Assembly (NCBI GenBank): GCA_016788165.1
Contig: JAEUTH010000025.1
Span: forward strand, 1-64,000
DNA length: 64,000 bases
Origin: Bacteroidia bacterium
GTDB lineage: Bacteria > Bacteroidota > Bacteroidia > AKYH767-A > OLB10
Direction: 5' to 3'
Position 1 is the first letter of the stretch. Each line of letters starts with the position of its first letter. Below, piece after piece: positions 48,453-57,763 of this stretch. A model generated the notes under the pieces. It did no database searches. It was not told the origin of the DNA and saw nothing but the letters and a program-made list of their open reading frames with translations. The position numbers were made by a program, and so were the translations under genes.

Positions 48453-50621
48453 TCAGATTTTAACAGCTAAAACCAACACATCATCTACTTGCTCCAGTTT
48501 GCCTTTCCAACTATTAAATGTTTGAAGTAAACTTTCACGTTGTTGTGATAGTGGCAGGTGATGTATTTCCAAGATATGATTTTTTAAATTTTTTGTGAGC
48601 AATTTTTTTTCATGCAAGCCACCAAACTGATCGGCATAGCCATCAGAAAAAAGATATAACACATCATTCTTTTGTAATGCAATGGTATGTTCGGCATAAA
48701 CCTCGTCATGCAAAATTTGCAAACCTCCGATAGGAAATTTATTAGGTTGGTAACTTATTATTTCGTGGTTACGCAAAAGCCATAATGGCCTGTTAGCACC
48801 GGCAAAACGCAGGGTAAGCGTTTGTAAATTAAGTTGGCATATAGCTATATCCATACCATCGTGCGATGTGCTTTCGCGTTGCTTTAAGGCATCAATAATT
48901 CCTTCGTTAAGTGTATTTAATATATGTCCCGGTTCAATTATATTTTTTTCGTTTACTATCTGATTAAGTAGCGAACTGCCAATCATACTCATAAGTGCAC
49001 CTGATACACCATGGCCGGTACAATCGGCTGCGGCAATTATAATGTTGTTTTCTTTTTTTGCATAGGCATAAAAATCGCCACTTACAATGTCTTTAGGCAG
49101 GTATAATATAAATGCATCGGCAAAGGTGGTTGTAAACAACTCAGTAGGTGGCAGTATGGCTGCTTGTATGCGTTTTGCATAATGCAAACTTTCAGTAATC
49201 TCTTTATTTTTTATTTCGAGCTCGGCTTTTTGTTGCACTACTTCTAAGGTGCGTTGTTGCACATTACGCTCTAAGTCGAGGTTTTGATTTTCGAGTATGC
49301 GTTTTTTTTCTTGTTCTTGTTCAATGGTTTTGTTTGACAGGTTGGTAATTTCATCTAACTGTTTGGTTAACCGCTTACCCATGCGGGCCATATCGCGTGC
49401 CAGGTAAATAGTCATACTAAGTGGCAGCGATATTATGAGTGAAATAGTAAAAACGGCTCCTGAGTTTATGTCGGTAAGTAATGTATCAAATAAGGCTACT
49501 GTTTTTAATTTAGAAGCCATGTAAGACATTACCGGTGCCAATAAAATTACCAGTGCAAAAATGCGGGCCCCATCTTTACCTTGCTTTAGGGCTTTTATTA
49601 TTACAGCGATAATATTTACTAACGAGATACTTAAAATTATTAGCGATAGAATGAGGGTAAATACCATTGCCGTTATACCACTAAATAACATGCATAACAG
49701 CAAGGTAATGTAGAGGCAGATAATAGTGATAAACAGTTTGCCTAATTTGTTGTAAAAAATAATGTGCAGTAAGCCTACAAGTGGTATAACCAAAAGGGGC
49801 AAAACCGATATGGCAATTTGGGTTAAACTGTTTACCAGATTAAAACTTGTGGAGGTAATGATGTAATAGGTATAAAGCGAAATAAACGCTACACCTAAAC
49901 AATACATACTGTAAAAAGCATTAACCGTTTTATCGCGATTAAAAATGTACATCACCAAGTGAAGCGCAAAAAGGGCAACAAACAAACCCGTAAAAAAAAT
50001 AAACGGAAAATATTTTTTATAATGGACTAGATCGCTTATATCTCCTTCTATTTTTTCGAAACGGAAATCGGTAAAACCATCAATGCTAATTCCATTATTA
50101 CTGCTTTTAACACGGTGAAAATCGCTGCAACGTATTGCCAGTACATGTGCTTTTTGATTTAGCACAACAATAATGTGTGCAGGTTCCAGGTTTAACACAG
50201 CTTCTTCAGTTTGTAAACTGGTACCAATAACACCTGACTTTTTTAGTAGTTTTCCATCTAAATAAAATTCAGCAGCCGATCCAAATTGCCTAATAAAAAA
50301 GGCAAGTGGTATATTTTGCATATTGCTATCGGCAATAAAATGTATGCGATACCAACGTACACTGCCATCGGCATCGTCATTGTTTAGGTCTTCAATATTT
50401 AGTAGTTTCCAATGGCTGTCATTATAGTTTGTGCCGGCAAAAACTGCACTATCGGCATTGCGGCTTTTCCAATTGGTTAAATCAATTTCAGTTTTATTTT
50501 TTGTTTGGCTGCCTGTACGGATGTTTACTACATTAGTGGCCAATGCGTTATTATAAGTTAAGTATAATAAGACGATAGCCGTAAAGCTTTTTATAGCATG
50601 TAATGTTTTTGCAAATGGCAT
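48453..50621 (-). CDS. 7TMR-DISM sensor with C-terminal SpoIIE/PP2C serine phosphatase (second of a pair)
   Basis: A 722-residue sensor phosphatase. Signal peptide, then an extracellular domain (about residues 28-190, galactose-binding-like 7TMR-DISMED2 type), seven transmembrane helices (about 205-425), a coiled coil (about 430-500) and a SpoIIE-family PP2C domain (505-722). Phosphatase residues are intact: DIVSGDFY, AAADCTGHGVSGALMSM, GMDIAICQL, FAGANRPLWLL and FSDGYADQFGG, providing the metal-binding Asp set. It should dephosphorylate a phospho-Ser/Thr protein in the cytoplasm in response to an external signal. The ATG lies 5 bases after the stop of the homologous upstream gene. A SiaB-like kinase and SiaC-like phosphoprotein are divergently encoded next door, so SiaC is the likely substrate. 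Confidence 0.92.
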   Translation of the reverse strand: MPFAKTLHAIKSFTAIVLLYLTYNNALATNVVNIRTGSQTKNKTEIDLTNWKSRNADSAVFAGTNYNDSHWKLLNIEDLNNDDADGSVRWYRIHFIADSNMQNIPLAFFIRQFGSAAEFYLDGKLLKKSGVIGTSLQTEEAVLNLEPAHIIVVLNQKAHVLAIRCSDFHRVKSSNNGISIDGFTDFRFEKIEGDISDLVHYKKYFPFIFFTGLFVALFALHLVMYIFNRDKTVNAFYSMYCLGVAFISLYTYYIITSTSFNLVNSLTQIAISVLPLLVIPLVGLLHIIFYNKLGKLFITIICLYITLLLCMLFSGITAMVFTLILSLIILSISLVNIIAVIIKALKQGKDGARIFALVILLAPVMSYMASKLKTVALFDTLLTDINSGAVFTISLIISLPLSMTIYLARDMARMGKRLTKQLDEITNLSNKTIEQEQEKKRILENQNLDLERNVQQRTLEVVQQKAELEIKNKEITESLHYAKRIQAAILPPTELFTTTFADAFILYLPKDIVSGDFYAYAKKENNIIIAAADCTGHGVSGALMSMIGSSLLNQIVNEKNIIEPGHILNTLNEGIIDALKQRESTSHDGMDIAICQLNLQTLTLRFAGANRPLWLLRNHEIISYQPNKFPIGGLQILHDEVYAEHTIALQKNDVLYLFSDGYADQFGGLHEKKLLTKNLKNHILEIHHLPLSQQRESLLQTFNSWKGKLEQVDDVLVLAVKI

Positions 50622-50626
50622 GTTGT

Positions 50627-52756
50627 TTATATTCTAATACCAATTACCAGTATGTCATCAACCTGCTCCGTATTGCCTTGCCAGCTTAATAATGTTTGCC
50701 GTAGGTTTTCCTTTTGTTGTGCCATGCTTTGGTCTTGTTGATGAAGCAAAACTTCCTTAAACTTTTTAGTCATTAATTTTTTACCGGTTGTTTCGCCAAA
50801 CTGATCGGCATATCCATCAGAAAAAATGTACAATGTATCGCCCGGTTGCAGGCTTATAGTGTGGTTGGTAAATTTTTCATCGTGCAAAACCTGCATCCCA
50901 CCAATTGGGAATTTATTGGGTATGGTTACATACAACTGACCTTGCCTTATAAGCCACAGTGGCCGGTTTGCACCGGCATAGGAAACCGTTTTAAAATCGT
51001 TATCAAAAGCACAAATGGCTATATCCATACCATCGTTAGAAACACTATCGCGTTGTTTTAATGATTCGATAATACCTTCGTTTAATTCGTCTAAGATTAA
51101 TGCAGGTGTGGTTATATTTTTTTCGTTTATAATTTGGTTTAGTAAGGAGCTGCCTACCATGCTCATAAATGCACCGGCTACACCATGGCCTGTACAATCG
51201 GCAGCGGCAATAATAATTTTGTTTTGTTTTACCGAGAAACCATAAAAATCGCCACTTACAATATCTTTTGGTATGTATAAAATAAACGATTGTGGTAAAT
51301 GTTGTTGAATGGTTTTGCGGTTTGGTAATATGGCAGCTTGTATGCGTTTTGCATAAGTTACATTGTCGGTAATTTCACGGTTCTTAACCATGATTAATTC
51401 ATTTTTTAAAGCCAACTCTTGGGTGCGTTGTTTTACCATGTGTTCTAAAACAATGTTTTGCTCTTCGAGTATTTTTTTCTTTTCCGATTCTTTTAAAAGA
51501 TTTTCCTGTCCTAACTTTTTAATATAAACCAATTGTTCTACCAATTGTTTTTGATTATTTCCATTACGTACACCCAAAACAAAGGCTACCGTTAGCGGAT
51601 AAAAGCATAAGCCTATTTGAGGTAAATAGCTGATTATTTTATAGCGAGAAAAAATTTCATCTACATCGTTTTTAAAAACAAATGCCAAAATAATGGGTGC
51701 TAAAACGTTTAAAAAGAAACCAATACTAAACCCGGCTGTAATGGTTTTCGACTCCCACTTTTTTTGACCAAAACCTTGTAATACATACCATAAAGCACTA
51801 AACGATGCACACACAATGGCTACAATAAACAAAATGCTTGAAAAAACAGAGCAGTTATTTATTTCGGGCATGCCATAATTAAACATAAAGTATGGCAAAA
51901 AGGATACGATAATTGAAAGTAAAAGGAGGATGAAAGGTATTTTGGTTTTTTCGCGGTTAAGAATAACCTTAGCTAAAAAGATGGATAAAAACTCGATAGC
52001 AATTACCGGTGCAAACAATATCAGATTTTGTACATAAACATTCAGATTATCGGCATTAACAATAAAGCCTAATGCACTAAAAAGGCAAAACAAAGCGAAG
52101 TACAAATGCTCGTTTTGTTGTGGTGCGAAAATAAAAATCAACATAAAAATAATACCGAATGAGAGGTAGTAAAAACCCAGAGCCATTGACTCGGTGTCGC
52201 TTTCGGTTTGTGATTCGATTGATGACTTACTCCAGGCTAATTTGCCTAAGTCTAATTTTAACTCGAAACTATTGCGGTAAACATCGGGTATAAACTCAAT
52301 TTCAAATGTATTTACAGTATCGTTAATATAAATATCGAAATAGTCGTTTAGGTTAGGTTTCTTCAATTTTTCATCGCTGCCAAAACTACCTGTTCTTAAA
52401 ATAATTTGATGGTTATGTTTTATCAAAACCGAACCTTGCACGGTATAACGCATTGCATATAATTGATGCGTTAGGGTTGAGTCGAATATAAAGGTTTGAA
52501 AAAGGGATACTTTACTTATTTTATTTAATGCCGATGTATCGGGTTGGGCTAATATGTTTTTTTGTTGTCCGTTACTATATGTTATCAACATGTGCCAGGG
52601 CCGTCTGCTTAGTATATTAACGTGGTTAATGGTATCGCCATTTAATTTTTTAGTGCCAATAAATTCAATACGCTCGCTATTTTTTGCGGGGTTACTAAAT
52701 GCTGCAGCCCAACAACAAAGACAAAATATTTTTAGAAGTAAGAATTTATTATTCAT
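50627..52756 (-). CDS. 7TMR-DISM sensor with C-terminal SpoIIE/PP2C serine phosphatase (first of a pair)
   Basis: A 709-residue paralogue of the downstream gene with the same layout: signal peptide (to about residue 20), extracellular domain (to about 185), seven helices (about 188-400), coiled coil (about 410-475) and SpoIIE domain (about 480-709). Motifs DIVSGDFYG, AAADCTGHGVAGAFMSM, GMDIAICAF, YAGANRPLWLI and FSDGYADQFGE are all intact. The catalytic domains are far more alike than the extracellular ones (compare the near-identical TGHGV, GANRPLW and FSDGYADQ blocks), so the pair probably senses different ligands but acts on the same or a related target. It starts 117 bases from the divergent promoter of siaB. 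Confidence 0.92.
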   Translation of the reverse strand: MNNKFLLLKIFCLCCWAAAFSNPAKNSERIEFIGTKKLNGDTINHVNILSRRPWHMLITYSNGQQKNILAQPDTSALNKISKVSLFQTFIFDSTLTHQLYAMRYTVQGSVLIKHNHQIILRTGSFGSDEKLKKPNLNDYFDIYINDTVNTFEIEFIPDVYRNSFELKLDLGKLAWSKSSIESQTESDTESMALGFYYLSFGIIFMLIFIFAPQQNEHLYFALFCLFSALGFIVNADNLNVYVQNLILFAPVIAIEFLSIFLAKVILNREKTKIPFILLLLSIIVSFLPYFMFNYGMPEINNCSVFSSILFIVAIVCASFSALWYVLQGFGQKKWESKTITAGFSIGFFLNVLAPIILAFVFKNDVDEIFSRYKIISYLPQIGLCFYPLTVAFVLGVRNGNNQKQLVEQLVYIKKLGQENLLKESEKKKILEEQNIVLEHMVKQRTQELALKNELIMVKNREITDNVTYAKRIQAAILPNRKTIQQHLPQSFILYIPKDIVSGDFYGFSVKQNKIIIAAADCTGHGVAGAFMSMVGSSLLNQIINEKNITTPALILDELNEGIIESLKQRDSVSNDGMDIAICAFDNDFKTVSYAGANRPLWLIRQGQLYVTIPNKFPIGGMQVLHDEKFTNHTISLQPGDTLYIFSDGYADQFGETTGKKLMTKKFKEVLLHQQDQSMAQQKENLRQTLLSWQGNTEQVDDILVIGIRI

Positions 52757-52835
52757 GCATAATTAAGCAAGGGATACTTGCAAGGCAATGATAAATAAAT
52801 TGTAGAAGTAGTTTTAAAAAATAGATTTAAAATCA

Positions 52836-52863
52836 TTGCAATTCAAAATCAATTTTATTTTTG
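52836..52863 (+). promoter_or_regulatory. Promoter of the siaB-siaC pair
   Basis: TTG at 52836-52838 and TATTTTTG at 52856-52863, 17 bases apart, match the Bacteroidota consensus. Transcription would start near 52869, which places ATG 52874 nearly on the transcript end and favours the ATG at 52889 as the siaB start. Confidence 0.65.
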
Positions 52864-52888
52864 TCAGCAAATAATGCAGGGCAAATTT

Positions 52889-53437
52889 ATGTCTGATATC
52901 TATAATCTGTATAAAACCATGGAGCGCGAGGATGTAATCTTGTCGTTTAAAGGCGATATTACGCAAGAGTTGCTTTCGTCTATCTATCAGATAATGGAAA
53001 GCAGAATGGATTCAAATAATGAAGACCCACGCAGAAAGAAGAAAATTTATAACATACTGGTCGAGTGCTTACAAAATGTTTATCACCACATGGAAAACTT
53101 TAAGCAGGAGGCATCCACTGAAACAGATGTTAATGCAACAGCTATTTTTATGATCGGACAAAATAATGATAGCTACCGCATAATTACAGGCAATTATATT
53201 TCGGTTAATAAGATAGAAGACCTGAAGCAACGCATTGATAAAATAAATGCCATGAATGCGGAACAGTTGCGTGCCTATTATGTCGAAAAATTAAGCACAA
53301 GCGAGTTGTCGGCTAAGGGTGGTGCCGGTTTGGGCATTATTGATATAGCGCGCAAATCGGGTCAGCAGATGGCTTATGAGTTTCATCAAATTAATGAAGC
53401 GTATGCATTTTTTAGTCTTACGGTTTTTGTAAAATAA
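52889..53437 (+). CDS. siaB: SiaB-family (DUF6272) protein kinase
   Basis: A 182-residue protein with a GHKL-type kinase fold, as in SiaB. The N-box ECLQN is at residues 59-63 (EVECLQNVYHH-type helix), and the glycine loop GGAGLG is at 144-149 (LSAKGGAGLGIID). SiaB phosphorylates SiaC in Pseudomonas. The start at 52889 (MSDIYNLYK) is preferred over 52874 because the promoter leaves almost no leader for the earlier ATG. The next gene, siaC, begins 6 bases after the stop. Compared with anti-sigma-factor kinases (RsbW/SpoIIAB) it has the same partner-switch logic but a different family. Confidence 0.9.
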   Translation: MSDIYNLYKTMEREDVILSFKGDITQELLSSIYQIMESRMDSNNEDPRRKKKIYNILVECLQNVYHHMENFKQEASTETDVNATAIFMIGQNNDSYRIITGNYISVNKIEDLKQRIDKINAMNAEQLRAYYVEKLSTSELSAKGGAGLGIIDIARKSGQQMAYEFHQINEAYAFFSLTVFVK

Positions 53438-53443
53438 ATTTAA

Positions 53444-53821
53444 ATGGAAAATCTCAATATAGAACCCGGTATAAAAACACCTTTTATACTATTTGATGCA
53501 AGTGCAGGTGCGCTAACTATAAAAGGCAAATCAATACCTGAAAATGCAATCGAATTTTATCAGGATGTTTATGCATGGCTTGATACTTATGTGCAAACAC
53601 CGGTTGCAAACACATCCATAACCATTGCATTAGAGTATTTTAATACCAGCTCGTCAAAATGTTTGCTTGATATTTTCAGGAAGCTCGAAACCTTATATAA
53701 GTCGGGCAAAAGCGAAGTGTTGGTTAACTGGATGTATGAAGAAGATGATGAGGACATGATGGAAGCCGGTGACGATTATCAAACCATCGTTAAAATACCT
53801 TTTAATATTACTAAGCTTTAA
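53444..53821 (+). CDS. siaC: SiaC-family (DUF1987) regulatory phosphoprotein
   Basis: A 125-residue single-domain protein with the DUF1987 pattern: TPFILFDASAGALTIKGKSIPENAIEFYQDV, then LEYFNTSSSKCLLDIFRKLE and an acidic loop EEDDEDMMEAGDDY. Thr68 lies within the conserved NTSSSK motif; SiaC of Pseudomonas aeruginosa is, to my knowledge, phosphorylated at Thr68, and the same residue number falls on Thr here. Unphosphorylated SiaC there binds and activates the diguanylate cyclase SiaD. No such enzyme is in this window, so the output partner is unknown. Its 3' end overlaps the convergent ABC gene by 11 bases. Confidence 0.92.
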   Translation: MENLNIEPGIKTPFILFDASAGALTIKGKSIPENAIEFYQDVYAWLDTYVQTPVANTSITIALEYFNTSSSKCLLDIFRKLETLYKSGKSEVLVNWMYEEDDEDMMEAGDDYQTIVKIPFNITKL

Positions 53822-56819
53822 ATGGCAGCTTTTTTAGCGAGCGTTTATTAAACCAACTTAATATTTTACGTAGTGTATTAAAGTATAATGTAACACTTAG
53901 TACAATGGTAAAAAACCAAATTACACAAAGGTTTACAAAATAAGTGCTTAGGTAAGTGCCAAAAAAATTTTTATTGGCAACATAAAACAACGACCGCACA
54001 CATGAAGTAGCTGAGCCATTGGTATAAACAGGGTGGTAACGTTGTACCAAATGATTATGGCTGATAATTATGGGTTCAAAATTATCCTTATCAAGAACTA
54101 AGTTGCTTAAATTGGTATTGGTATATTTTTGTTCGAGGGCTATAAGTTGTGCTGCATCAAAAGTTGCTATAACCGAATCTTTTAACTGCGATGCATTTTT
54201 ATAAATAAGTTGCTGTGTTTGCTTAATCTGTTGTAAACTGTTTAACACATCGTTATACACCGGTTTGGCTATTATTTGTTTTGTACTATAAACCGAAAAT
54301 TTGTGGATACCTTCTTTTTCTAATTCGTTGTTTACGGTTATCCATTTTTGATCGGCTTGATTGCCATACTTGTTTTGATGTAGCGAATCAATCATATCCT
54401 GCATTTTTATTTGCCATACATTGTTTTTATACGTTGCATTACTCATTGCTTTATTGTATGGATAGAAATGTTTTTCGTAAGCATTGTTTTTAAACTGATT
54501 TACTGCCAATGCTTCGAATGCCCAACGCGATACCATAATTTCGCCAACAAAGGGCACCTTGGTTTGTGTTGAGATGGATGGGTTTAAATTATCGAACTTT
54601 ACCATTACACCACTTAAAATAATTTGAGGTATAATTAAAAATGGAATAATGATGTAAATGGTAACTACAGAGTTAAACGAAGCTGATATGTTTAAGCCTA
54701 ACAGATTAGCGAAACAACTTACACTAAATAAAATAAGCCAGTAGTCAATAAACATATCCTGAATGCAAAATAAAAAGTTGGCAATAAGTGTAAACGTAAA
54801 TGTTTGAACGGCTGAGATAAAAAACATGACACCTATTTTAGCCCACAAGTATGCGCCACGGCTTAAATGCAAAAAGGCTTCGCGTTTTAAAATTTTTCGA
54901 TCGCGTATTATTTCTTCAGCGCTTACGGTTAGGCCCATAAACAGTGCTACAATAACACCAATAAAAATAAAGGCGGGCAGGTTGGGGTTATCCTGAAAAA
55001 TATAGCTACTATTTGTTTTGCTGTATTTTAAAAAGTAAGCAAGAATAAGTGCCAATACTGGTGCTTCTAAATAATTTATAAGCAGATATTGTGTGTTGTA
55101 AATTTTACTTAGCAAGTCGCGTTTTATATATACCAGCATTTGCTGCCACCTGCTTGGTTTTTTAAAATCGCTGGTTAATGTATCGGCTACCAAATTAGTA
55201 TCCGGCTCATGTAAATTCGATTGCCGGTACATGCCATTCCAATCTTCGGGTAAAAATTTGCGCTGCGTAGTTGCATTACCAAACTCGTCAAGCACGCGTG
55301 ATTCGATTATAGAAAAAACTTGCTCGGGGTTTATGGTGCCACATGTTTCGCACTCACTTACATCATCAGCAAAACTTGCCTTGTTTTTAAAATAGGTAAG
55401 TGAGTCAACCGGGTTGCCATAATATATGGGATAGCCTCCGGTATCTAAAATCAAAAGCCTGTCGAACAGTTTAAATATTACCGATGACGGTTGGTGAATA
55501 ACAACAAAAACAAGTTTGCCGTTAATGGCCAACTGCTTTAGTAAATCCATTACATTTTCCGAATCTAATGAAGATAAACCACTGGTAGGCTCATCAACAA
55601 ATAATACGGCAGGTGCGCGTATTAATTCCAATGCAATATTTAAGCGTTTGCGTTGCCCGCCACTTATTGTTTTATCTAAAGGGTTGCCAACTTTTAAATT
55701 TTTTATTTCGATAATTGAAAGCGCTGCTAACAGGTTATTTACGCGCTCATTAATTGCTTCATCAGTTAGGTTGCCAAAACATAACTTGCTATTGTAAAAT
55801 AAGTTTTGATAAACCGTTAAGTCTTCAATTAGTAAATCGTCTTGTGGTACAAAACCTATAAGACCATCGAGTTTGTTTTTATCGTTGTGTATGTTTAGGC
55901 CATTAATGGTAATATGACCTTGCGATGGTGTAAGGTTGCTGTTTAAAATATTAAGCAAAGTACTTTTGCCCGTACCACTGCCACCCATAATACCAATTAA
56001 GTTGCCTGACGATGCTTTAAAGCTGATGTCGTGCAAACCTTTGCGGCCATTTTTAAATACGTACGAAACCTGATGCGCTTGTAATGAAAAATTTATTTTG
56101 TTTTTATTTTCTAAAAATCCGCGCATTACATCGCTGTAGTAAACCGGCAAGGCTTTACTGCCACGTATTACACTGCCTTCGGCAAATACCTGAATTCCAT
56201 TATTAAGCAGTGGTTTGCCATTTAAGGTTAGTATAGCAGGCCCTTTATATCGCACAAAAAGTAATGCAGCATGTGGCGAAAAATAAAACGAAAGCTGACC
56301 CGATAGTGTTTCGTTGAAAACATGTTTGGCTTTGCCTTGGTAATATTTATCGGCATTTACAATTAAAAATCCCTGGCCTATATTATCGTCCGAAAGGTTT
56401 GCAAGTTGCATACATGCATTAAAGTCGGCATCATCAATATTAAATACATTAGCTACGGTTGCAATAAATTCAAGCTCCTGGCCGCTTACCACTTCGTTTG
56501 ATGAGTATGCAAATTCAATTAAGTGCATCAATACGATGTACTTTTGTTTTTGACTTAGCTCTGCATTTATTTCGGTACAAATGCGTAATACTTTTACTGA
56601 GTTTACCGATACACGTTTTTTTTGTTTGCCTTCCTGTTCCTTTCCTTGAAGCGTGTTGAAATAATTATCAAAAATTTCGAGATAGGTATTAACCAGGCTG
56701 CGGCTTAATTGTTGTTTTAAAAAACTTTCGACAATGCTGCGGCCATGCGCTGTTAGCCTGTCGGCATTGGCAATAATGGCAAACAGTTGCATTAATGCTC
56801 TAAGTAAACGATGACTCAT
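53811..56819 (-). CDS. ABCG-type transporter fused to an N-terminal TerB-like domain
   Basis: A 1,002-residue half-transporter. Residues about 60-150 form a helical TerB-like domain (KVLRICTEINAEL, VLMHLIEFAYSSNEVVSGQELEFI), followed by a small beta-rich region (about 155-235, resembling an FHA-like module). The ABC ATPase follows: Walker A GGSGTGKST (about 276), signature ISGGQRKR (about 385), Walker B LFVDEPTSGLSSLDSE, H-loop VIHQPS. A CETCG segment, then an ABC-2-type membrane domain (five helices about 570-740) with a long extracytoplasmic loop and a final helix near residue 970. The domain order (ATPase before membrane part) is ABCG/WHITE-like. The start is ATG 56819, because the longer TTG frame runs through a terminator hairpin. 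Substrate unknown. Confidence 0.88.
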   Translation of the reverse strand: MSHRLLRALMQLFAIIANADRLTAHGRSIVESFLKQQLSRSLVNTYLEIFDNYFNTLQGKEQEGKQKKRVSVNSVKVLRICTEINAELSQKQKYIVLMHLIEFAYSSNEVVSGQELEFIATVANVFNIDDADFNACMQLANLSDDNIGQGFLIVNADKYYQGKAKHVFNETLSGQLSFYFSPHAALLFVRYKGPAILTLNGKPLLNNGIQVFAEGSVIRGSKALPVYYSDVMRGFLENKNKINFSLQAHQVSYVFKNGRKGLHDISFKASSGNLIGIMGGSGTGKSTLLNILNSNLTPSQGHITINGLNIHNDKNKLDGLIGFVPQDDLLIEDLTVYQNLFYNSKLCFGNLTDEAINERVNNLLAALSIIEIKNLKVGNPLDKTISGGQRKRLNIALELIRAPAVLFVDEPTSGLSSLDSENVMDLLKQLAINGKLVFVVIHQPSSVIFKLFDRLLILDTGGYPIYYGNPVDSLTYFKNKASFADDVSECETCGTINPEQVFSIIESRVLDEFGNATTQRKFLPEDWNGMYRQSNLHEPDTNLVADTLTSDFKKPSRWQQMLVYIKRDLLSKIYNTQYLLINYLEAPVLALILAYFLKYSKTNSSYIFQDNPNLPAFIFIGVIVALFMGLTVSAEEIIRDRKILKREAFLHLSRGAYLWAKIGVMFFISAVQTFTFTLIANFLFCIQDMFIDYWLILFSVSCFANLLGLNISASFNSVVTIYIIIPFLIIPQIILSGVMVKFDNLNPSISTQTKVPFVGEIMVSRWAFEALAVNQFKNNAYEKHFYPYNKAMSNATYKNNVWQIKMQDMIDSLHQNKYGNQADQKWITVNNELEKEGIHKFSVYSTKQIIAKPVYNDVLNSLQQIKQTQQLIYKNASQLKDSVIATFDAAQLIALEQKYTNTNLSNLVLDKDNFEPIIISHNHLVQRYHPVYTNGSATSCVRSLFYVANKNFFGTYLSTYFVNLCVIWFFTIVLSVTLYFNTLRKILSWFNKRSLKKLPFKA

Positions 56820-56853
56820 AAGTTGTTGTTTTGTGCAGATATTGTACTGCGTG

Positions 56854-56895
56854 AAAATAAAAAAGCCCGTTAATAATTTTATCAACGGGCTTTTT
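56854..56895 (-). terminator. Intrinsic terminator after the 56912 lipoprotein gene
   Basis: GCCCGTT (56865-56871) pairs with AACGGGC (56884-56890); flanking A- and T-runs extend the stem and supply the T-tract on the minus strand. It sits between the lipoprotein stop and the ABCG gene start, separating their transcripts. Confidence 0.82.
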
Positions 56896-56911
56896 AAAAA
56901 TTTGGGTACGG

Positions 56912-57763
56912 TTAATTTATAATGCTATTACGTACGGAGTTTAGTTTTTTTGCCAGCTTATCTAAATAGTCTTTTGTAATTTGTTTCGAGTCGCTTGGTT
57001 CTTTGTAAATGGCTAATAGTTGATTGTATTCATTTACCACTGAAGTCATTTCTTTATTGTCTTTAAAAGTACCAAGTAGTTCAGTAATTTTATCTAAATA
57101 CAAACGTTGCTCCCACACACGTTGGTATAAATTTTCGTTTTCGGCTGTACGCTCTTGTTCTTTTAGCAGGTTAACGGTTATGTATTGGCACTCTAACCAA
57201 CTACCGGCTAATGCCTGGCTGGCAGTTTCTAAGCGTTCGTTGGTGCGCAAATAATTATCAGTTGCCATTAAAGCTTCGTCAACCAAACGTGATAGCGAAT
57301 CTTTGTTTTCCGAATTTTTTTCGAAACGTGCCGTATAAGCGTTAAACGATTCGCTCATGTTTAAATCGGCAGCTAATTTTTGTGTGGTACTGTAATATTT
57401 TTTTATATCTAAAATACGGTTGTTTACTACAAGGTATCCTAAGTCCATACCGTAAATACCATAATTTAAAGCTTGTTTGGTAGCCGTTTTGTACTTGTTA
57501 GCATTGTCGGCCGTGTTTAACAATGCCACGTTAACGGGCATATTGCTTTTACTAAACTCACTTAATATTTGCATGGGTGGGGGCAGGTTAAGCAAGGTGT
57601 ATTGAAATAAGTATTCGCTATAAGCGTTTGGCGGTGTGGTGTCGGCAGCAACAGCGGCAGTTGTATCGTTTGTTGAATCGGTAGCAGGGTTTGGTGCATT
57701 GCTGCACGATGCCAACAAGCAGGCTGATGCCAAAAGAAATAAGCTGTATTGTTTTAATATCAT
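56912..57763 (-). CDS. Lipoprotein of unknown function, helical
   Basis: A 283-residue lipoprotein. Signal segment and lipobox LLASC give a lipidated Cys; then a Thr/Asp/Ala-rich linker and a mostly alpha-helical body (for example LSEFSKSNMPVNVALLNTADNANKY, YGIYGMDLGYLVVNNRILDIKKYY, LRTNERLETASQALAGSWLECQYI). No enzyme motif was seen. The start is set at ATG 57763 because the longer ATG at 57781 falls inside the -7 promoter element (57779-57786, minus strand). A terminator follows. It is transcribed away from the TPR/barrel pair. Confidence 0.82.
   Translation of the reverse strand: MILKQYSLFLLASACLLASCSNAPNPATDSTNDTTAAVAADTTPPNAYSEYLFQYTLLNLPPPMQILSEFSKSNMPVNVALLNTADNANKYKTATKQALNYGIYGMDLGYLVVNNRILDIKKYYSTTQKLAADLNMSESFNAYTARFEKNSENKDSLSRLVDEALMATDNYLRTNERLETASQALAGSWLECQYITVNLLKEQERTAENENLYQRVWEQRLYLDKITELLGTFKDNKEMTSVVNEYNQLLAIYKEPSDSKQITKDYLDKLAKKLNSVRNSIIN

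Follow-up and report, generated by a model that had tools for sequence, protein, structure and literature searches.

A SiaABC-type phospho-switch is, as judged from sequence, present in the DNA of a Bacteroidia bacterium, and its output is, with a probability of about 0.7, the ABC exporter encoded next to siaC in place of a diguanylate cyclase. The window, that is the whole stretch of 64,000 nt analysed, corresponds to positions 1 to 64,000 of contig JAEUTH010000025.1. The original prediction was centred on 52836-53821, which covers SiaB and SiaC. As a functional unit the locus is larger, reaching from 48453 to 57763, and includes the following features.

48453-50621, minus strand: second membrane sensor with a C-terminal SpoIIE phosphatase domain (722 aa; weak 7TMR-DISM match)
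50627-52756, minus strand: first membrane sensor with a C-terminal SiaA-like SpoIIE phosphatase domain (709 aa)
52757-52873, no strand: divergent intergenic region of 117 bp between the phosphatase genes and siaB-siaC
52874-53437, plus strand: siaB, SiaB-family Thr kinase (187 aa; DUF6272, HATPase-like)
53444-53821, plus strand: siaC, SiaC (125 aa; PF09345) with the predicted phospho-acceptor Thr68
53811-56819, minus strand: TerB-FHA-fold-ABC-ABC2_membrane exporter, the candidate SiaC target (1002 aa from the ATG at 56819)
56574-56621, minus strand: candidate SiaC-docking element in the TerB domain, codons of exporter residues 67-82, KKRVSVNSVKVLRICT; loop and helix start
56912-57763, minus strand: all-helical lipoprotein beyond the exporter gene (283 aa from the ATG at 57763)

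The identification of SiaB as a kinase with the DUF6272 domain was borne out by Pfam (E 1.2e-41), by the NCBIfam SiaB family kinase model NF038262 (167.6 bits, above the cut-off of 85) and by a match to P. aeruginosa SiaB (6KKO_A; E 2.4e-16), with the kinase motifs of which ILVECLQNVYHH and GGAGLGIIDIARKS of the window protein align. Likewise, SiaC matched PF09345 (E 5e-41; 139.6 > 24.5) and the SiaC structures 6KKO, 6KKP and 7E6G (E 1.1e-14), and the Thr of NTSSSK, predicted to be residue 68, is located exactly at this position. The stricter equivalog NF038264 was not reached by SiaB (100.8 < 225), nor the equivalog NF038265 by SiaC (95.3 < 150). The gap between siaB and siaC is six bases, and the 3' end of siaC overlaps the convergent exporter gene by 11 nt. 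A consensus scan of the divergent intergenic region 52757-52873 gave no promoter above chance, and a scan for terminators likewise stayed at chance level.

The output of the switch had been described as unknown, a conserved and co-occurring neighbour, the TerB-FHA-ABC exporter overlapping siaC, being overlooked. The exporter was recognized by Pfam as TerB (PF05099; 25.1 > 24.4), ABC (PF00005; 109.8) and ABC-2 membrane (PF01061; 73.2). The TTG at 56885, the first of its frame, probably lies ahead of the true start, because relatives begin at MSEKIL or similar. Most genomes having the lipoprotein gene carry it linked to that of the TerB-ABC exporter; a fold search with the lipoprotein gave no meaningful match (best E 0.27).

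SiaC was detected in 17 of the 296 genomes of the phylum sample and the exporter, using its N-terminal profile A3 at E<1e-40, in five, which are exactly the five SiaC-positive genomes of the same class and are all without GGDEF. Within the 42 genomes sampled from its own order, SiaC is present in 13, the exporter in 17 and both in 11, so that the exporter accompanies 11/13 SiaC-positive versus 6/29 SiaC-negative genomes (Fisher p=1.5e-4), and for near-complete SiaC-positive genomes the figure is 10/10 (p=9e-5), both p values being a guide only as the genomes are not independent. The two SiaC-positive genomes of the order without the exporter are 58% and 85% complete.

The adjacency of siaC and the exporter gene survives rearrangement. 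The window, G045 and families f1 and f52 have the two genes in convergent orientation, while the operon of f9 has the order SpoIIE-SiaB-SiaC-ABC-lipoprotein, the operon of G312 and G313 reads SiaC-lipoprotein-ABC, and L189 carries SiaC-lipoprotein-ABC-SpoIIE-SpoIIE consecutively. The neighbours of DUF1987, of which a survey had been proposed, were examined in the phylum, and the TerB-FHA-ABC exporter was found to be the conserved neighbour in Bacteroidia. A scan of genome collections gave 80 named loci nearest to the window SiaC, 79 of them with a called siaC, representing a sample of Bacteroidota and not of all bacteria. The exporter is located within five genes of siaC, convergent or in tandem, in 45 of the 79 and, among loci flanked by 5 kb or more in both directions, in 38 of 53; in the other 34 of the 79, many on short contigs, no exporter is within reach. 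The exporter does not adjoin siaC in G299, G306 and G334. The same gene pair is present in the cultured hosts Marinifilum flexuosum DSM 21950, M. breve and Geofilum rhodophaeum.

One short element of the exporter tracks SiaC. In an alignment of 28 exporter N-termini (A4), residues 67-82 of SiaC-positive genomes are 44-100% identical to the window, against 28-47% for the rest of the region, and in SiaC-less genomes and six unlinked f9 paralogues 6-31%, against 25-42% elsewhere. This segment was picked after inspection, but it also came first when the complete domain was scanned in sliding windows. The pattern [SA][VI][KR] at 74-76 is present in 63/63 SiaC-associated exporters (17/17 plus 46/46 of a later sample) and in 0/11 without SiaC association, the latter including fast-evolving copies; the pattern was relaxed after a clade of 13 was seen to have AIR/AVR for SVK/SVR, and the strict SV form at 74-75 is found in 33/46 of the later sample. 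On a tree built without the columns of the element, its losses amount to four changes, one of which falls between sister sequences, G299 with SiaC and G300 without. In the AF2 model, residues 67-72 form a flexible loop and residues 69-87 a helix. The f9 genomes also encode two further TerB-ABC transporters far from SiaC (L073-L078), which are without the SiaC-associated element.

The partner face of SiaC was compared between 62 transporter-linked SiaCs and 15 docking-helix-linked SiaCs, P. aeruginosa included, over 119 columns, with reference to the positions contacting SiaD (PMC8457831). The switch core Tyr65/Asn67/Thr68/Ser69 is kept in both groups, and the SiaD-contact positions 114, 31, 10, 29, 107 and 110 rank 1, 2, 6, 10, 12 and 13 of 119 for the difference between groups. 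SiaD contacts account for five of the 12 columns that best separate the two groups (p=0.005), and the enrichment among variable columns is similar (p=0.007); over all columns p is only 0.10, as four contacts do not vary in either group. The two top-ranking contacts, D114 and Y31, are both Ile in the window SiaC, and D29 and D79 changed from acidic to basic in the transporter-linked group. As this comparison sets Bacteroidia against other classes, lineage differences contribute to it, with the other columns serving as the control. The window SiaC keeps the switch core, and its partner face is altered.

In other families of the phylum, siaC is adjoined by unlike genes: a GGDEF protein (L040, L041, L048), a histidine kinase (L038, L047, L052, L055), an adenylate/guanylate cyclase (L051, L054), a stand-alone helical protein of 77-99 aa (L043-L045) or other proteins (L042, L046). 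These neighbours share near the N-terminus a motif of approximately K-[IL]-[TA]-[RK]-[IVL]-[SG]-D-x-x-Q, and the docking helix K-I-T-R-I-G-D-x-T-Q is common to L038, L040-L045, L047, L048, L051, L052, L054 and L055. Against PDB, the motif profile matched one entry, 7E6G (SiaD), at both SiaC-binding sites. Profiles made by leaving out one family group at a time still recovered the SiaC neighbours of the omitted group (E 1e-21 to 4e-7), and all the profile matches among 687 proteins are located one or two genes from siaC. These results are good evidence for the motif as a docking element for SiaC that serves many outputs, and its sharing by such unlike neighbours indicates that SiaC outputs are interchangeable. 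On balance we lean toward SiaC as a general plug-in switch, which would act on cyclases, histidine kinases and adaptors through the docking helix and in Bacteroidia would directly gate the TerB-FHA-ABC exporter through a re-tooled surface. In L048 (G268:C16:33941-34331), siaB is interrupted by a stop while siaC and the GGDEF gene remain, and the GGDEF gene also appears split.

Since SiaC neighbours in other families carry the docking helix, and a conserved neighbourhood is by itself no proof of interaction, the switch might act, by way of a SiaD-type docking helix or by some other route, on a protein encoded at another place in the genome, with the exporter merely a stable neighbour. This is rather unlikely, although it is the strongest of the alternatives: the docking-helix profile (A1) gave no convincing match in the source genome, the best hits (E 0.04-0.09) being chance-like proteins; neither the SiaD docking motif nor GGDEF was found near siaC in the 80 named Bacteroidota loci; and the loss of the exporter element with SiaC and the change of the SiaC face would be left unexplained. 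The lack of the motif in the source genome fits with SiaC docking to the exporter at another kind of surface. The KVLRIC..IN helix of the exporter was considered as a homologue of the SiaD motif K-V-x-R-I-S, being suggestive by eye, and was rejected as hhalign gave a probability of 0.3%, no support; without a SiaD-type motif in this helix, the mode of docking would differ from that of SiaD.

The preferred reading, with the exporter as the output, can be formulated as follows. By analogy to SiaABC of P. aeruginosa, SiaB would phosphorylate SiaC at Thr68, and the two membrane phosphatases would strip the phosphate from SiaC upon their own signals, two signals being expected by homology to converge on SiaC through two different sensor halves. 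The pattern of conservation suggests that dephosphorylated SiaC binds to the cytoplasmic N-terminal part of the exporter, composed of TerB and a degenerate FHA fold, through the face by which it binds SiaD in Pseudomonas, contacting the basic loop and following helix of residues 67-82. This binding may gate export together with the partner lipoprotein, the exporter presumably being active when SiaC is dephosphorylated.

FHA folds usually bind phosphothreonine, and their phospho-binding signatures are Gly-Arg and Ser-x-x-His. No FHA match was obtained in the exporter by Pfam; in the AF2 model of the region (pLDDT 82), residues of about 150-225 form a beta domain of FHA fold, for which the Foldseek matches listed are FHA-containing PDB entries (best E 5.6e-3, none below 0.001, probability up to 1.0). 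Given this fold, one may suppose that the exporter binds phospho-Thr68 of SiaC, so that SiaB and not the phosphatases turns it on, and Rv1747, an FHA-ABC exporter of M. tuberculosis, pairs with a Thr kinase (PMC3908365). We consider such a phospho-dependent binding improbable. The Gly-Arg and Ser-x-x-His signatures, as judged by eye, are not conserved in alignment A4, which is why the FHA-fold domain is probably structural or protein-binding; Thr68 is located at a helix start and not in an extended peptide, the SiaC-linked element sits in the TerB part, and for SiaD, phosphorylation blocks the binding (PMC8457831).

As for the inputs, the two SpoIIE phosphatases were confirmed to be divergent to siaBC by coordinates, strand and Pfam (SpoIIE, E about 1e-21 for both). 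The combined label 7TMR-DISM/SpoIIE given to them holds for both with respect to SpoIIE; its 7TMR-DISM part is approximate, as the 7TMR-DISM_7TM match is sub-threshold and in one protein only (24.6 bits versus 29). The phosphatase domain of the 50627-52756 protein matched the SiaA structure 6K4E (E 4.6e-27), far above the next PDB match, while the full-length SiaA equivalog was reached by neither protein (184-190 < 700), the sensor half being different. The phosphatases differ freely between loci while SiaB-SiaC-exporter stays: two membrane sensors in the window, HAMP-GAF-PAS-SpoIIE with CheR/CheB in f9, receiver-SpoIIE in L122 and small soluble phosphatases in L117. This variety around a constant core is as expected of exchangeable inputs on a fixed switch. 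The two-phosphatase build was originally proposed to define a new variant; it is not distinguishing because related loci carry a single sensor phosphatase or several, and these vary in build.

Several unusual arrangements were noted among these loci. The SiaBC-transporter operon of f9 (L035, L036, L037) contains a 1119-aa HAMP-GAF-PAS-SpoIIE phosphatase, ahead of which are genes for CheR, CheB and a GAF protein; this suggests methylation-tuned sensing. Adjoining siaC are a 625-aa SpoIIE-SiaB fusion (L042:10162-12039), with phosphatase and kinase in one chain, and a 364-aa tandem SiaB-SiaB fusion (L033:4720-5814). Two family members have, next to the SiaC-transporter locus, a gene for a histidine kinase with an N-terminal cyclic-nucleotide-binding domain (L122:12370-13674 and L125:637-1950).

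That the phosphatases serve a classic switch of the STAS anti-anti-sigma type, and not SiaC, is very unlikely: the genome encodes one stand-alone STAS-like protein (C13, 117 aa) and one STAS match inside a 537-aa reading frame (C23), but the former does not reach the curated cut-off and is encoded far from the phosphatases, which both adjoin siaBC and match SiaA best. The 117-aa protein (G000:C13:27081-27323; L210:1474-1827), sub-threshold in Pfam, is encoded between Fur-like and purA genes and is possibly the protein of another switch.

The source genome (3.34 Mb, 99.8% complete, 46 contigs) encodes one SiaC, two SpoIIE proteins, both at the locus, and one TerB-ABC exporter. A whole-genome search revealed no GGDEF domain, so the claimed absence of a diguanylate cyclase stands; a GGDEF protein elsewhere in the genome, the finding named beforehand as refuting the original prediction, was looked for and not found. 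Without GGDEF in the genome, SiaC cannot act on a diguanylate cyclase and must act on something else, in support of the earlier view of another partner. The statement that the phylum makes little use of c-di-GMP is valid for its own order, with GGDEF in 2/42 genomes, and too broad for the phylum, with a GGDEF match in 157/296, in some directly after siaC. A diguanylate cyclase missed in the gaps of an assembly of 46 contigs is hardly credible as the target in view of the completeness of the genome and of the lack of GGDEF also in the other four same-class SiaC-positive genomes of the phylum sample and in 12/13 SiaC-positive genomes of the order, the exception being a 71-aa fragment.

In the literature searched, the function of the SiaC family has been demonstrated in Pseudomonas only, as the activator of a diguanylate cyclase, and DUF1987, named in a single paper, was merely suggested to modulate adjacent proteins. 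This suggestion is now made specific by a named partner gene and by residues on both sides. If true, an exporter gated directly by a phosphatase/kinase partner switch represents a new type of output, the switch gating a transporter and not a second messenger enzyme or a sigma factor. The shared docking helix provides a rule for predicting SiaC targets elsewhere.

The closest known system is SiaABCD of Pseudomonas aeruginosa, in which SiaC activates a diguanylate cyclase (PMC8457831, PMC7647112). Common to both are the SiaB kinase, SiaC with Thr68, the SpoIIE/PP2C phosphatase on a membrane sensor and the invariant Tyr65-Asn67-Thr68-Ser69 switch core, but the window genome is without SiaD or GGDEF, has two divergently transcribed phosphatases and a SiaC with an altered SiaD-contact face, and its proposed output is an ABC exporter. 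The SiaABC-diguanylate cyclase loci of f29 in the phylum (L040, L041, L048) share the switch core and are arranged as SpoIIE-SiaB-SiaC; unlike the window, they have a GGDEF protein with the docking helix right after siaC and no TerB-ABC exporter. Rv1747/PknF of M. tuberculosis also combines an ABC exporter having an N-terminal FHA-type domain with a partner gene for Thr phosphorylation; Rv1747 differs in working with the Hanks-type kinase PknF, with no SiaB/SiaC and no TerB, and in having two FHA domains, one of which was shown to bind a protein partner (PMC3908365, PMC5549992). HsbA/HsbD and BgrV/BgrR, partner switches acting on diguanylate cyclases (PMC8457831), are similar in that a phosphatase and a kinase govern an effector-binding switch protein, but in the window the proposed effector is a transporter and the switch protein belongs to the SiaC family, not STAS.
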